From Desulfatibacillum sp. (GTDB lineage Bacteria; Desulfobacterota; Desulfobacteria; Desulfobacterales; Desulfatibacillaceae): a stretch of DNA of 64,000 nucleotides. The notes under the pieces were generated by a model. The model searched no databases. It was not told the DNA's origin and saw only the letters and a program-made list of their open reading frames with translations. A program made the position numbers and the translations under genes. Positions 52,862 through 56,800 of this stretch are shown here, piece by piece (positions within the stretch are counted from its first letter, which is position 1; each line of letters opens with the position of its first letter). The stretch lies in NCBI GenBank assembly GCA_016342355.1, contig JAEINP010000001.1:124001-188000 (forward strand), read 5' to 3'.

Positions 52862-53188
52862 TTGTATTTTTTCGGCGTGGTACGGTTTGGTGACTCCTTG
52901 GCGAAATTCTTCAATTTCAAGAATAACAAACCTTGGGCTCAGGATATGACCATCGTCATGCAGTTGGGCCTGACCATGGTCGGCTGCATCGCCTTTTGTT
53001 TCTGGGTGGGGTATCGGGTGGACAAATGGATGGGGACGAAAGGTGTCTTCATCACCATTGGAACGCTTCTGGGTGTTTTCGGAGGCGCCAATGTCTGCTA
53101 TCGCCAGATCATGGCTTTAACGGTTGAATCCGAGAAGGAGAAGGAAGGCGGGAAACCGCCGGAAGACAAGCTGGATGGAACAGGTTAA
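52862..53188 (+). CDS. atpZ: ATP synthase accessory protein AtpZ
   Basis: A 108-residue protein with two membrane helices (MTIVMQLGLTMVGCIAFCFW and TKGVFITIGTLLGVFGGANV) and a charged tail, the AtpZ/FO accessory pattern, with the WVGYRVDKWMGT turn. A TTG start at 52862 with GAAGG 7 bases upstream is the best-supported start; an inner ATG at 52946 is possible. AtpZ together with AtpI helps ion supply or rotor assembly. It overlaps atpI by 14 bases. Confidence 0.78.
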   Translation: MYFFGVVRFGDSLAKFFNFKNNKPWAQDMTIVMQLGLTMVGCIAFCFWVGYRVDKWMGTKGVFITIGTLLGVFGGANVCYRQIMALTVESEKEKEGGKPPEDKLDGTG

Positions 53189-53549
53189 TGAGCTTCGCAA
53201 ACGCTATTGCCCCAGGGCCCTGGCTCTGGCAGTCATAGCAGGGGCTATCCTGATTGTCCTGGACATGAAACCCATCGGCAGGGGAATCATCCTGGGAACC
53301 TTGGCCAGCATCCTCAACTTTCTTGTCATGAGCCATGCATTGCCTTTGGCGGTGCTAAAAAGCTCGGGCGGGGGCATGCTGCGCAGCCTGGGTTCGGTCC
53401 TGGTCCGTTATCTGCTCATGGCAGCGGCTCTTTTTGTGGGCTATCACTATGATGGCTATGATTTTTTTGCCGTGGCCGGAGGGCTTTTTTCCGTGCAATT
53501 GGTTATCTTGGCGGATCATTTATACCAGGGAATACGGAAAAAAAACTAG
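53175..53549 (+). CDS. atpI: ATP synthase assembly protein AtpI
   Basis: A 124-residue protein of four helices (ALALAVIAGAILIVLDM; IGRGIILGTLASILNFLVMS; VLVRYLLMAAALFVGY; AGGLFSVQLVILADH), the AtpI/UncI layout. AtpI helps c-ring assembly, especially for Na+-type enzymes in other bacteria; that fits the unusual c proteins downstream. The ATG lies inside atpZ, giving coupled translation. Confidence 0.8.
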   Translation: MEQVNELRKRYCPRALALAVIAGAILIVLDMKPIGRGIILGTLASILNFLVMSHALPLAVLKSSGGGMLRSLGSVLVRYLLMAAALFVGYHYDGYDFFAVAGGLFSVQLVILADHLYQGIRKKN

Positions 53550-53643
53550 GTCATGGATGTTGAAATAAGGCAAAGCATGTGTTAGGAATGCGCGTCTTTT
53601 GGGGACGATTTGACGCTAAACTGAAGAAACGGGTTTGGAAATT

Positions 53644-54339
53644 ATGGAAGAACTTGGGAGAATACATCAGTTGCTTGTGCCGCTGACTGAAGGTTACACC
53701 ATGACCTTCAACCTGGAAGTGATCCTCATGACCTGGATTGTCATCGGCATTCTACTCTTTTTCGGGTTTATGGCGGTCAAGAAACGCCATGTGGTTCCAG
53801 GCCCCATGCAGGTGGTGGGCGAGCTTTTTGTCAAGAATCTTTACGACTTGGCGGATGACGCCCTGGAAGAGGAATTGGGGAAAAAATACGCCCCCATGAT
53901 TTGCGCCCTCTTTTTATTCCTGTGGATGAGCAACATGCTCGGACTTCTGCCGCCCATTCCCGGCATTCCGGAATTCGCCGAGCCCACCAAGGACCTGAAC
54001 ACCCCCCTGGGTCTGGGCCTTTTGGGTTTTGTCATCGCCCACGCCGCCGGGATCAAGGCCAAGGGATTCAAGGCCTATATCACAACCTATTTTGAACCCT
54101 TTGCCTTCATGATGCCCCTTAATCTTATCGGCGAACTGGCCAAGGTGGTTTCCATCTCCTTCCGTCTGTTCGGTAACATCATGGGCGGTTCTATTATTAT
54201 CCTGGTGGTTTCCCACCTTACGTATTCCATTCTCATTCCCCCGGCCCTGTTCGGCTTTTTCGGGGTCTTTGTGGGTACCATCCAGGCCTTTGTGTTCACC
54301 ATGCTTACAACGGTTTATATTTCTGTCCAGGTGAAATAG
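53644..54339 (+). CDS. atpB: ATP synthase subunit a
   Basis: A 231-residue stator channel protein with about five helices. The essential Arg174 is in VVSISFRLFGNIMGGSII, and PLNLIGELAK precedes it, the hallmark of subunit a. Start at 53644; the frame runs three codons further back. It forms the two ion half-channels next to the rotor, so it must accept both the fused c4 protein and the single c subunit. The c4 gene begins 2 bases later. Confidence 0.95.
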   Translation: MEELGRIHQLLVPLTEGYTMTFNLEVILMTWIVIGILLFFGFMAVKKRHVVPGPMQVVGELFVKNLYDLADDALEEELGKKYAPMICALFLFLWMSNMLGLLPPIPGIPEFAEPTKDLNTPLGLGLLGFVIAHAAGIKAKGFKAYITTYFEPFAFMMPLNLIGELAKVVSISFRLFGNIMGGSIIILVVSHLTYSILIPPALFGFFGVFVGTIQAFVFTMLTTVYISVQVK

Positions 54340-54341
54340 TT

Positions 54342-55319
54342 ATGATTGATATTGCGACATGGGCCAAGGTGGCCGCGTTGGTTGGAGGCGGATTTGCAAT
54401 GGGCTTTGGAGCCATCGGAGCTGCGGTGGGCGAAGGTTACGCCGCCGCCAGCGCCAATGCCGCCATTTCCCGAAACCCTGAAGTCAGCGGCGATGTGTTC
54501 AAGACCATGCTGGTGGGACAGGCTGTGGCCGAGTCAGCGGCGATTTTCGCCCTGGTGGTCGCCATGCTTTTGGTTTTCGCCAATGCGGGGGAAAACGCCT
54601 CCTGGCTGAACGTTTCGGTTTATCTTTCCGCAGGCCTGTGTATGGGCCTGGGCGCCATCGGCTCCGGCATCGGCTCGGGTTTTCCCGCCGGCGCAGCCTG
54701 TGAAGGCACCGCGCGCCAGCCGGAGACAGGTGGACGACTGGTGACCAATATGCTCATCGGCTCCGCCGTATGCCAGACCCCGGCGATTTTCGCCCTGGTG
54801 GTCTCCTTTATCCTCATGTTCACCAATTTCTCGGACAGGCCGGTCAACCCCACATGGGCCGCTATTTTGGGCGCAGGACTGGCCTCGGGTCTGGGCGCCA
54901 TAGGCTCCGGTCTGGGCGGAGGCCTGGTCGCCCAGGCAAGTTGCGAGGGAGTGGCCCGTAAGCCCGAATGCGCGAGCACCGTGACCAACGTCATGCTCCT
55001 GGGCCAGGCGGTTACCCAGACCACAGCCATTTACGGCATGCTGGTCTCTTTTATTCTCATGTTTAAAACCTTTGACCCCGCAGGAACCACCATCGCCCCT
55101 GCCGCAGCTCTGCTCTCCGCAGGTATTTGCATGGGCATCGGCGCCATTGGCCCGGGTGTGGGGGAAGGTTTTGCAGCCCAAAGCGCTGTGGGCTGGATTG
55201 CCAGGAACGAAAACGCTACTGCGGAACTGACCCGTACCATGCTGGTGGGTCAGGCCGTCGCCGAATCTACGGGCATCTATGCCCTGGTGGTGGCGCTAGT
55301 ATTGATATTTGTTGTTTAA
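54342..55319 (+). CDS. Fused four-hairpin F-type rotor c subunit (8 membrane helices)
   Basis: A 325-residue protein consisting of four tandem c-subunit hairpins (about residues 8-82, 92-161, 172-242, 253-325). Helix pairs share GLGAIGSGIG-type glycine runs and R-x-P polar loops (R44-N45-P46, R125-Q126-P127, R206-K207-P208; the fourth reads R288-N289-E290). Ion sites: hairpin 1 has E31 and E64-S65; hairpin 4 has E275 and E308-S309-Y313. Hairpin 2 has S112 and Q145-T146, hairpin 3 has G193 and Q226-T227, so both lack any carboxylate. It would place 4 hairpins but 2 sites in the ring. Normal F-type c subunits have one hairpin. It lies between atpB and a single-hairpin atpE. Confidence 0.93.
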   Translation: MIDIATWAKVAALVGGGFAMGFGAIGAAVGEGYAAASANAAISRNPEVSGDVFKTMLVGQAVAESAAIFALVVAMLLVFANAGENASWLNVSVYLSAGLCMGLGAIGSGIGSGFPAGAACEGTARQPETGGRLVTNMLIGSAVCQTPAIFALVVSFILMFTNFSDRPVNPTWAAILGAGLASGLGAIGSGLGGGLVAQASCEGVARKPECASTVTNVMLLGQAVTQTTAIYGMLVSFILMFKTFDPAGTTIAPAAALLSAGICMGIGAIGPGVGEGFAAQSAVGWIARNENATAELTRTMLVGQAVAESTGIYALVVALVLIFVV

Positions 55320-55349
55320 TTCATATTCATTTTTTCAGGAGGTAGGCAA

Positions 55350-55598
55350 ATGGCGATTGAAGGTGCAGACATCATCAAAGCAGCAGGTCTTTTGGGCGCT
55401 GGTATTTCCATGGGTTTGGGAGCAATCGGGCCTGGCGTCGGTGAAGGTATGGCGGCAGCCAAGGCATGTGAAGCTATCGGACGTAATCCTAAGGAAGCAG
55501 GTCTCCTGACCCGTACCATGCTGGTGGGCCAGGCCGTTTCCGAATCCACGGGTATTTACTCCCTGGTTATCGCGCTCCTTTTGCTCTTTGTGGTTTAA
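55350..55598 (+). CDS. atpE: ATP synthase subunit c, two-carboxylate type
   Basis: An 82-residue two-helix protein. Helix 1 carries the glycine run and E32 (GVGEG), the loop R45-N46-P47, and helix 2 Q61, V63, E65, S66 and Y70. These positions match Na+-binding c subunits (Q32/E65/S66 type), with Glu in place of Gln at 32, as reported for the two-carboxylate Na+ rotor of Fusobacterium nucleatum. The C-terminal stretch [20 protein letters not shown] is nearly the same as in hairpin 4 of the fused protein upstream. AGGAGG lies upstream of the ATG. Confidence 0.95.
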
Positions 55599-55613: not shown

Positions 55614-56066
55614 ATGGAAGTTGTCAGCAATATCGCCTTGATCAGCATTAATGAAACGCTGTTTGTCCAGGTGATTTCTTTCCTGATCTTCCTTTTCATA
55701 GCCAAACGGTTCATTTTCAACCCCCTGCTGGACTCCATGGGCGAACGGGATTCCCAAATCACGGGCGCCAAGGACGACATAGCCCGTGTGAAATCGGAAA
55801 TGGACCAAATGGCGGACCAGCTTGCCAGGCACGAAGCAGAAGCCAGGAGCAAGGCCATGGACCTGAAAAAGGACCTGGAAGAACAAGGGAAAAAAGAAGC
55901 ATTGGATATTGTGAGGGCTGCCCGGAAAGACATTGAAGGTATGCGCGATGAAGCCGCCAAACTGGTGGACGAACAAATCGCCCAGGCCCGCACTTTTTTC
56001 AAGGCTGAATCTCAGACATTGAGCGTCAGCATTATGGAAAGCCTGTTGGGAAGAAAGGTTTCCTGA
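55614..56066 (+). CDS. atpF': ATP synthase subunit b' (stator)
   Basis: A 150-residue protein: one N-terminal helix (TLFVQVISFLIFLFIAKRFIF) then a long charged coiled coil (KSEMDQMADQLARHEAEARS...). This is the b/b' stalk that ties subunit a to the F1 head. No signal peptide. It begins 15 bases after atpE. Confidence 0.88.
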   Translation: MEVVSNIALISINETLFVQVISFLIFLFIAKRFIFNPLLDSMGERDSQITGAKDDIARVKSEMDQMADQLARHEAEARSKAMDLKKDLEEQGKKEALDIVRAARKDIEGMRDEAAKLVDEQIAQARTFFKAESQTLSVSIMESLLGRKVS

Positions 56067-56230
56067 TAGAAACCGCCTTCCCCGGCTGCGCCGGCGCAAG
56101 GAAGGATATGACGGGCCAGGCATGATCCGGGTCTATTCACCGAGCCTTATTCGGCTGTTCCAGAGCAGGGGGTTACTCTAAAACCCGCCTGGAACGATTG
56201 CAACAAGGCCCATTGGTATTGGAGAGGCTG

Positions 56231-56800
56231 ATGAAACATTCGGCACAAAAGATCGGGCTGTTCGCAGGAGTGTTTACCCTGTTTTTTGTAGCGAACGCCT
56301 TTGCAGCAGAAACCGCAAGCTGGCGCCCTACCTATGACTTTGTCATGCGGTGGGTCAACTTTGGCATTATTGTGCTCCTGGTCGCCAAATACGGGTGGGG
56401 TCCCCTTACCCGGTGGCTTAGGGGGCAGGGTGACGAAGTTGCGGCCCAGCTTAAGGATATGGAAGAAAAAAAGCAGGCGATCCTGGAAAAAATGACCGAA
56501 ACCAAGGACCAGATCCAACAGCGCGCCCAATACCTGGAGGATCTCATGGACAGGACTACGGAAGCCGCCAAGCAGGATAAGGTCCGGATCGTGGAACTGG
56601 CCAAAGCAGAGGGCGCCCAGATGATCCAGGACGCCAAACACCGGGCCGATAACCAGATTATGGAAGCCAGGAATAATTTTCGGGCCGATCTTATTGAAGA
56701 AGCCGTGGATCTGGCAGCGCAAAAATTACCGGAAATCATTTCGGCCGAAGACGAAAACCGGATTCAGGAAAATTACCTGACCAAAGCCTTGCAGCAATAG
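56231..56800 (+). CDS. atpF: ATP synthase subunit b (stator)
   Basis: A 189-residue protein with a signal-like N-terminus (FTLFFVANAFAAE), a membrane helix (RWVNFGIIVLLVAKYGWGP) and a coiled coil (DMEEKKQAILEKMTETKDQI). Start at 56231 with GGAGAGG upstream. With the b' protein it forms the heterodimeric peripheral stalk. It is the last gene of the operon; atpH, A, G, D and C do not follow. Confidence 0.9.
   Translation: MKHSAQKIGLFAGVFTLFFVANAFAAETASWRPTYDFVMRWVNFGIIVLLVAKYGWGPLTRWLRGQGDEVAAQLKDMEEKKQAILEKMTETKDQIQQRAQYLEDLMDRTTEAAKQDKVRIVELAKAEGAQMIQDAKHRADNQIMEARNNFRADLIEEAVDLAAQKLPEIISAEDENRIQENYLTKALQQ

Follow-up and report, generated by a model that had tools for sequence, protein, structure and literature searches.

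How could a protein with four fused c-type hairpins, two of them without a live ion site, work in the rotor of an F-type ATP synthase, and on which F1 would such a rotor act? These questions are raised by a locus of a Desulfatibacillum sp. genome, in a stretch of 64,000 nucleotides that we refer to as the window. Positions 54342-55319 of the window, on the + strand, form a single open frame from ATG to stop that encodes 325 aa and that we call c4. The genome is a draft of 142 contigs, and it is placed with the genus of Desulfatibacillum alkenivorans (order Desulfobacterales, phylum Thermodesulfobacteriota). Taking together the cluster, its relatives across the phylum and the gene content of the genomes that carry it, we hold with moderate confidence that c4 sits in a mixed c-ring with a one-hairpin subunit (c1), that its Gln blanks cut the number of ions per ATP, and that the F1 is borrowed.

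The four-hairpin protein and its gene cluster

The initial annotation of this DNA had described one frame with four successive c-type hairpins, two live and two dead, and both points were borne out: the reading frame and four separate PF00137 (ATP-synt_C) stretches confirm the hairpins, the second-helix site residues are E64, Q145, Q226 and E308, and their first-helix partners are E31, S112, G193 and E275 (Table 1). The Tyr kept at the 70-equivalent of hairpin 3 would complete the site of hairpin 4. The Fusobacterium chain used in the alignment we take to be PDB 3zk1.

Table 1. Features of the second Fo cluster in the window.
Feature	Coordinates	Strand	Evidence
atpZ-like gene, start codon uncertain	52862..53188	+	PF09527, 52.3 bits
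atpI	53124..53549	+	PF03899, 31.8 bits
atpB, predicted subunit a of second Fo, conserved Arg motif SISFRLFGN	53635..54339	+	PF00119, 173.5 bits
c4, predicted four-hairpin rotor subunit, site pattern E-Q-Q-E	54342..55319	+	four PF00137 stretches, site residues, model
c4 hairpin 1, live (E31, E64); 70-equivalent Phe	54342..54584	+	hairpin alignment
c4 hairpin 2, dead (S112, Q145)	54591..54827	+	hairpin alignment
c4 hairpin 3, dead (G193, Q226); 70-equivalent Tyr kept	54840..55070	+	hairpin alignment
c4 hairpin 4, live (E275, E308)	55077..55313	+	hairpin alignment
Shine-Dalgarno AGGAGG of c1, strong	55337..55342	+	sequence, duplex energy
c1, predicted one-hairpin rotor subunit, 82 aa, live two-carboxylate site	55350..55598	+	PF00137, 68.2 bits; hairpin alignment
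b' stator stalk subunit	55614..56066	+	PF00430, 60.2 bits
b stator stalk subunit, last cluster gene	56198..56800	+	PF00430, 43.9 bits

As a whole, c4 scored 210.6 bits against PF00137 (cut-off 24) and found its best NCBIfam match in NF009999 (F0F1 subunit c; 235.4 bits, cut-off 124), whole-protein scores that are inflated because four hairpins add up. We ascribe to the same summing the fact that it exceeded the cut-off of TIGR03322, the alternate-F1F0 c model (190.3 against 130.85). Every V-type subunit K model listed in the NCBIfam search remained below its own cut-off on c4 (93 bits against 211 for NF004913), which rules out an identity as V/A-type subunit K. Membership in an N-ATPase was also ruled out, since the cluster is without F1 genes and the N-ATPase of this genome is a separate locus on contig C125. 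The models and the clustering with F-type a and b genes point to an F-type (FoF1) rotor subunit. The best AlphaFold2 model (4 sequences) has a mean pLDDT of 83.1 and a pTM of 0.82, the remaining four having pLDDT values of 74.7 down to 33.8, and consists of helical hairpins in series; among PDB chains it comes closest to subunit c1 of A. woodii, with Z 20.9 for 154 residues in hairpins 3-4.

On the + strand of the window the cluster runs atpZ, atpI, atpB, c4, c1, b' and b. No delta, alpha, gamma, beta or epsilon gene lies downstream of it, where the long frames that come next run on the opposite strand. The assignment to an F-type atp operon made in the initial annotation therefore stands only in part: F-type a, b' and b genes do lie beside c4, but the cluster is Fo-only and the canonical F1 is on another contig. 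That F1 operon, the single canonical one of the genome, is on C25, begins with its own b' and b, and is apart from both Fo sets, the ordinary Fo set (atpI-atpB-atpE) being on C65. The genome has an N-ATPase operon too (L051, C125:128000-142000), so that it holds a and c genes in three different sets; a PF00231 search gives two gamma genes in total, one canonical and one of the N-ATPase. The c1 gene, the missing F1, the wide spread of the family and its variation from 2 to 6 hairpins were absent from the initial annotation.

Conservation and spread of the family

The c4 protein is 93% identical in D. alkenivorans DSM 16219, with a dN of 0.040, a dS of 0.69 and thus a dN/dS of about 0.06; the single hairpins have dN values of 0.025 to 0.060, and c1 one of 0.008. 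Matches to c4 at E <= 1e-20 were found in 126 of the 291 genomes of a class sample (a hand count, with two borderline cases) and in 43 of the 395 genomes of a phylum sample. An assembly artefact of tandem c genes, raised from the outset as a possible objection to the frame, is ruled out by its full-length recurrence at 57-93% identity in many genomes of the class and is also opposed by the purifying selection on c4. Some single-contig genomes contain c4-type frames as well.

The initial annotation had suggested searching for other four-hairpin F-type proteins and aligning their hairpins. We did so on stretches taken from a part of the matching genomes, dropping repeat fetches of one locus, and obtained 122 loci, each with a single multi-hairpin frame. 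The window's order contributed 88 of them and the rest of the phylum 34, and 116 of the frames are complete. In these sampled genomes a frame has 2 to 6 hairpins and 0 to 5 dead sites. With E for a live and Q for a dead site, the complete frames read EE (1), EQ (3), EQE (10) and EQQ (5) among those of two and three hairpins, EQEE (12), EQEQ (1), EQQE (41) and EQQQ (17) among those of four, and EQQQE (6), EQQQQ (11), EQQQQE (1) and EQQQQQ (8) among those of five and six. All 116 begin with a live hairpin, 115 have a dead one in second place, and 115 of these natural frames keep 1 to 5 Gln blanks. When incomplete frames are included, the site residue is Glu in 204 and Gln in 288 of 494 hairpins, with 2 unreadable and no other residue among the readable ones. 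The first helix carries Glu, Asp or Gln in 199 of the 204 live hairpins and in none of the 288 dead ones; both site glutamates are thus lost together in dead hairpins.

The gene order of the window recurs (Z-I-a-c4-c1-b'-b) in 52 loci and likewise in the complete loci with two-, three-, five- and six-hairpin proteins; most shorter loci stop at a contig end. A one-hairpin c frame, with site residues E, E, S and Y in the c1 family, is found in 116 of the 122 loci, and in 5 of the remaining 6 a contig end truncates the locus. Several loci depart from the common form. In L031 (genome G018) a four-hairpin c stands by itself, the flanking 1.5 kb at each end yielding neither an a gene nor a one-hairpin c. 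L100 and L104 have the four-hairpin gene before atpB, not after it. In genome G221, L060 is a second copy and has no full a gene, and genome G119 has two multi-hairpin Fo clusters (L073 and L094) with rotor proteins EQQQQ and EQQQ. The four-hairpin frames of L106, L140 and L151 carry a long N-terminal extension that brings them to 456 to 466 codons, probably owing to a start codon set too far upstream. Finally, in L135 (G421) the one-hairpin c precedes a two-hairpin c with both hairpins live (EE). No complete frame but this one has Tyr70 in hairpin 1, and it is possibly near the state that preceded site loss.

A tyrosine rule across neighbouring hairpins

In the Na+ rings of Ilyobacter and Enterococcus hirae, as the relevant part of PMC2359735 describes them, the main Glu and the Gln of a site come from the same hairpin and the Tyr that steadies the Glu comes from the neighbouring one. 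If chain order is ring order, Tyr70 is therefore expected in hairpin i-1 wherever hairpin i is live. This is what we found in 345 of the 360 neighbour pairs of the complete frames, 70 being live with the Tyr and 275 dead without it, with 15 exceptions (14 live without a preceding Tyr, 1 dead with it). The association of Tyr70 in hairpin i-1 with Glu65 in hairpin i gives a Fisher p of 4e-59, uncorrected for relatedness, which inflates the pair counts; a kinship-aware count on the a-subunit tree leaves 7 independent contrasts, 5 for the rule, 0 against and 2 silent. Among the rule-breakers, 6 EQEE frames have Phe ahead of their live third hairpin and 6 EQQE frames have Leu ahead of hairpin 4; the other three are single frames. 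A dependence within the same hairpin was dismissed, residue 70 having no link there to the site residue (p 0.34), and the control in the following direction, with the following hairpin, gave an inverse link (p 5e-13).

The ends of the chain are also informative. Hairpin 1 has Phe70 in 115 of 116 frames, all before a dead hairpin 2, and the sole Tyr70 case precedes a live one. The last hairpin carries Tyr70 and Ser66 in all 116; Tyr70 is present in 45 of 45 dead last hairpins too, which would fit a live neighbour in the next chain. The A. woodii c1 obeys the rule as well, with Phe70 in hairpin 1 and Tyr70 in hairpin 2 (letters of PDB 4bem). Based on these patterns, the rule supports, at the level of sequence, that c4 would be a member of the ring and that chain order would be ring order.

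The set of residues of a Na+ site (Gln/Glu32, Glu65, Ser/Thr66 and Tyr70) is present in the sequences across neighbouring hairpins, and the second Fo is probably Na+-coupled. The ordinary c of the window genome has Gln, Glu, Ser and Tyr at the same positions, so we make no claim that the two motors differ in their ion. Pumps of the Rnf/Nqr type did not serve as a marker of Na+ use, since PF03116 does not track the multi-hairpin Fo and is almost equally common in genomes with it (27/27) and without it (22/25).

Origin of the hairpins

For a hairpin tree, 194 hairpins of 38 picked loci were combined with references; because hairpins are short, several of its nodes are weak. The first hairpins fall together (38 members, support 0.82), and second and middle hairpins make up another group (77 members, 0.965) that is nearly all dead, the live third hairpins of the EQEE forms falling among them. 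A third group holds 27 last hairpins (0.94), with the others scattered nearby, and the one-hairpin c1 proteins make up a fourth (38 members, 0.885). The hairpins of A. woodii pair with each other (0.97) and not with hairpins 1 and 2 of the family, again on short sequences with weak nodes. Because of this grouping, the fusion looks old in the phylum and the A. woodii duplication is probably separate. Mapped on an a-subunit tree of 112 operons, the site pattern needs a minimum of 39 changes, against a mean of 68 in shuffles, and the number of blanks is therefore labile.

Composition of the ring

The ribosome sites of the two rotor genes differ widely. In the window the duplex energy is -9.8 kcal/mol for c1 against -3.0 kcal/mol for c4; the family means are -10.1 kcal/mol for c1 and -3.1 kcal/mol for the long gene, c1 having the stronger site in 113 of 115 loci. 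Under an alternative start rule c1 still exceeds the long gene in 105 of 112 loci, and also a (104/109), b' (95/102) and b (82/95). Since the c1 site is so much the stronger, the best model would be a mixed ring of few c4-type subunits and many c1. The conserved order a-cN-c1-b'-b also speaks for such a ring. As to whether both subunits share one ring, ribosome-site strength is only a hint. The c4 gene starts 2 bases past the atpB stop, and its weak site may be explained by translational coupling to atpB; the ordinary a gene of the window genome has a strong site though few copies are presumably needed.

Two other roles for the multi-hairpin protein have to be weighed against the mixed ring. 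It could make a ring alone, for example of three c4 copies (12 hairpins, 6 sites) in a V/A-like manner, with c1 as a minor or alternative subunit. The Tyr70 and Ser66 of the last hairpin would then serve equally well the hairpin 1 of the next copy, live in every complete frame, but the one-hairpin c that accompanies the family in 116/122 loci (with L031 as the only one truly without it, the other 5 being cut) and its much stronger ribosome site go against such a ring, and the five-hairpin members do not divide the 11 hairpins of Na+ F-type rings, as given in the portion of PMC3692424 on ring size. We consider it unlikely. Slightly less likely again, in our view, is that the protein serves as a scaffold in assembly, or as a brake that idles the ring through its dead hairpins, and so is no working part. 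Its predicted copy number is low, judging from the ribosome site, and a single dead hairpin halts synthesis in Bacillus PS3 (PMC8809890); set against this, the live sites and the Tyr supplied by the neighbour are conserved jointly across the family, dN/dS is about 0.06, and the comparable two-hairpin c1 of A. woodii is one chain of a crystallised ring, beside nine c2 (PDB 4bem). The mixed ring of c4 and c1 is thus the reading that we carry forward.

One canonical F1, probably shared by two Fo motors

Gamma and a genes were counted in 53 genomes with a multi-hairpin Fo, 12 of them single-contig. Exactly one gamma above 300 bits is present in 51. The remaining two are G221 (84% complete, single-contig), with a single partial match of 202 bits, and G513, with a match of 211 bits and a 36-bit fragment. 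G041 has one additional fragment of 28 bits, and in the single-contig G263 the gamma match contains a stop codon. Leaving that of G221 aside, every other gamma scoring 171 to 211 bits has a further a gene within 4 kb of it, which would be the N-ATPase arrangement, read fully only in the window genome. A second canonical gamma was found in none of the 53 genomes. N-type a genes aside, all 53 have exactly two a genes, all above 160 bits (with a further 31-bit fragment in G221); some N-type a genes reach 166 bits, and score alone does not separate them. Among 25 control genomes of the class sample without a strong match, 19 have a single a gene, 4 have two, one has three and one has none, N-type genes included.

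Outside the order of the window, the cluster continues into delta in 12 of 34 loci, and in 10 of these also into alpha (L126, L127, L132, L134, L136, L139, L142, L147, L148 and L159); L160, where the long gene is cut off, likewise runs into delta and was left uncounted. Gamma was searched for in 11 of those 12 genomes. Nine have the canonical gamma a few kilobases further along and the second canonical a gene apart, G410 has its canonical gamma on a different contig, and for G513 the search gave just the fragment, likewise on a different contig. The fetched stretches of the window's own order have no F1 genes beside the cluster. From this continuity and the gene counts, the multi-hairpin Fo belongs with the canonical F1. 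Most likely, to go by the counts, the second Fo docks on the only canonical F1 of the cell, which the ordinary Fo also uses; the ordinary Fo would then have to share it or wait, and the two Fo motors may exchange within the cell. Pairing with an overlooked F1, either that of the N-ATPase or one absent from the draft assembly, is suggested by the 142 contigs of the window genome and by its N-ATPase F1. We regard it as very improbable given that none of the 12 single-contig genomes has a second canonical gamma (at least 7 of them are also without an N-type gamma) and that the cluster is continuous with canonical F1 genes in those 12 loci.

Proposed working and energetics

In our model, c4 would belong to the rotor of a second Fo motor, probably one coupled to Na+. 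The protein would occupy the c-ring with four adjacent hairpins in chain order, beside several copies of c1, and its two Gln hairpins would fill ring positions ion-free, leaving fewer ions per turn and per ATP. An 11-hairpin ring with one c4 and seven c1 would have 9 sites and use 3.0 ions per ATP. We infer the single c4 per ring, the 11 hairpins, Na+ and the sharing of F1; ring size and ion are carried over from other species, the Na+ F-type rings characterised up to PMC3692424 all having 11 hairpins according to its text on this point. By arithmetic for one long subunit, the sites per ring are 11 minus the blanks, that is 9 here and from 11 down to 6 across the family, and the force needed for 50 kJ/mol would be 141 mV with 11 sites, about 173 mV with 9 and 259 mV with 6. 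Blanks would therefore raise the force needed for synthesis and favour the building of a steep gradient.

This bears on two earlier claims. That there are fewer ion sites per hairpin was right, two of the four c4 hairpins carrying Gln. The suggestion that such a form suits life near the energy limit has to be reversed, since fewer ions per ATP require a larger ion-motive force for synthesis (PMC5662883 and PMC12229609, in their statements on this ratio), a lower n sustaining a lower phosphorylation potential (PMC5662883, same part). The physiology of a low ion-to-ATP ratio is nevertheless contested, because the section of PMC7911925 on acetogens states the opposite view, that a reduced ratio is an adaptation to low energy.

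Round a ring of 11 hairpins, live sites would stand 98 degrees apart in EQQE and 196 degrees apart in EQQQQQ; where the gap exceeds the 120 degrees of one ATP, ion-driven synthesis is hard to picture, and the extreme forms are therefore expected to pump. In the fused c10 ring of Bacillus PS3 one E-to-Q hairpin abolishes ATP synthesis (PMC8809890), and two adjacent blanks would be hard to reconcile with smooth synthesis; since one blank stops the engineered ring, the natural rings must work differently or mainly pump. The least certain part of our model is what the motor is for: it could be a low-gear motor exporting Na+ against a steep gradient at the cost of ATP, or the second Fo could make ATP at few ions each under a high Na+ gradient.

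More tentatively, and as something possible rather than probable, one F1 head may serve two exchangeable Fo motors, an ordinary and a low-ion one. Evolution would then tune the gear of the second by gain, blanking and revival of hairpins within a single rotor protein, and the ions used per turn would no longer be tied to ring size. The family offers a natural series of rotors (EQ, EQE, EQQ, EQEE, EQQE, EQQQ and on to EQQQQQ) in which the numbers of hairpins and of live sites vary separately. This makes an old question testable, namely how many ion-free steps an Fo can cross and whether ions per ATP are set by live sites or by ring size. A shared F1, if real, would let a cell shift its ATP synthase to another gear through exchange of the membrane-bound part.

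Comparison with known systems

A review of hybrid rotors is said to list a dozen other anaerobes whose operons pair an F-type with a V-type c gene. These may include members of the c4 family, so we claim no priority for several hairpins per chain as such. A 2026 paper on Desulfatiglandales (PMC13343851) reports that atpE occurs in two to four copies and refers to the hybrid-rotor review; its excerpted text does not mention multi-hairpin proteins, dead sites or a shared F1. Judged by title or abstract start, none of the open-licence matches listed describes a c4-like form. Within that literature, the c4 family is therefore a previously undescribed form of a known F-type arrangement, a multi-hairpin c with a one-hairpin c.

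Each of the known systems resembles the family in part. V/A-type rotor subunits also have fused hairpins, often with lost sites, numbering two in many V-ATPases, three in Methanocaldococcus and thirteen in Methanopyrus (PMC2359735, in its overview of rotors); unlike them, c4 lies in an F-type cluster with a, b and b' and stays below the cut-offs of the V-type K models. The engineered c10 of Bacillus PS3 likewise has several hairpins per chain, but its ring is artificial and its synthesis stopped by one E-to-Q change (PMC8809890). With the two-carboxylate Na+ c-ring of Fusobacterium nucleatum, hairpin 4 and c1 share Glu at both positions, Ser66 and Tyr70, whereas that ring has one-hairpin subunits only, each with a site (PMC3692424, in its description of the site).

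There is also a likeness to Acetobacterium woodii, and the comparison with its F/V hybrid made in the initial annotation holds, with live and dead hairpins in a multi-hairpin c beside a one-hairpin c among F-type genes. Such a pair in an F-type operon is known from A. woodii and C. aceticum, according to the part of PMC7911925 that treats their c genes. As in A. woodii, the multi-hairpin gene directly precedes the one-hairpin gene in one operon (PMC7911925, same part), the first hairpin is live and the next has Gln for Glu (PMC7911925; alignment with PDB 4bem), and Phe70 stands before the dead hairpin and Tyr70 in the last. Unlike A. woodii, with its two hairpins of which one is dead, the family extends to six hairpins and five dead sites, carries mostly Glu rather than Gln at position 32, and often has its Fo without F1 genes alongside.
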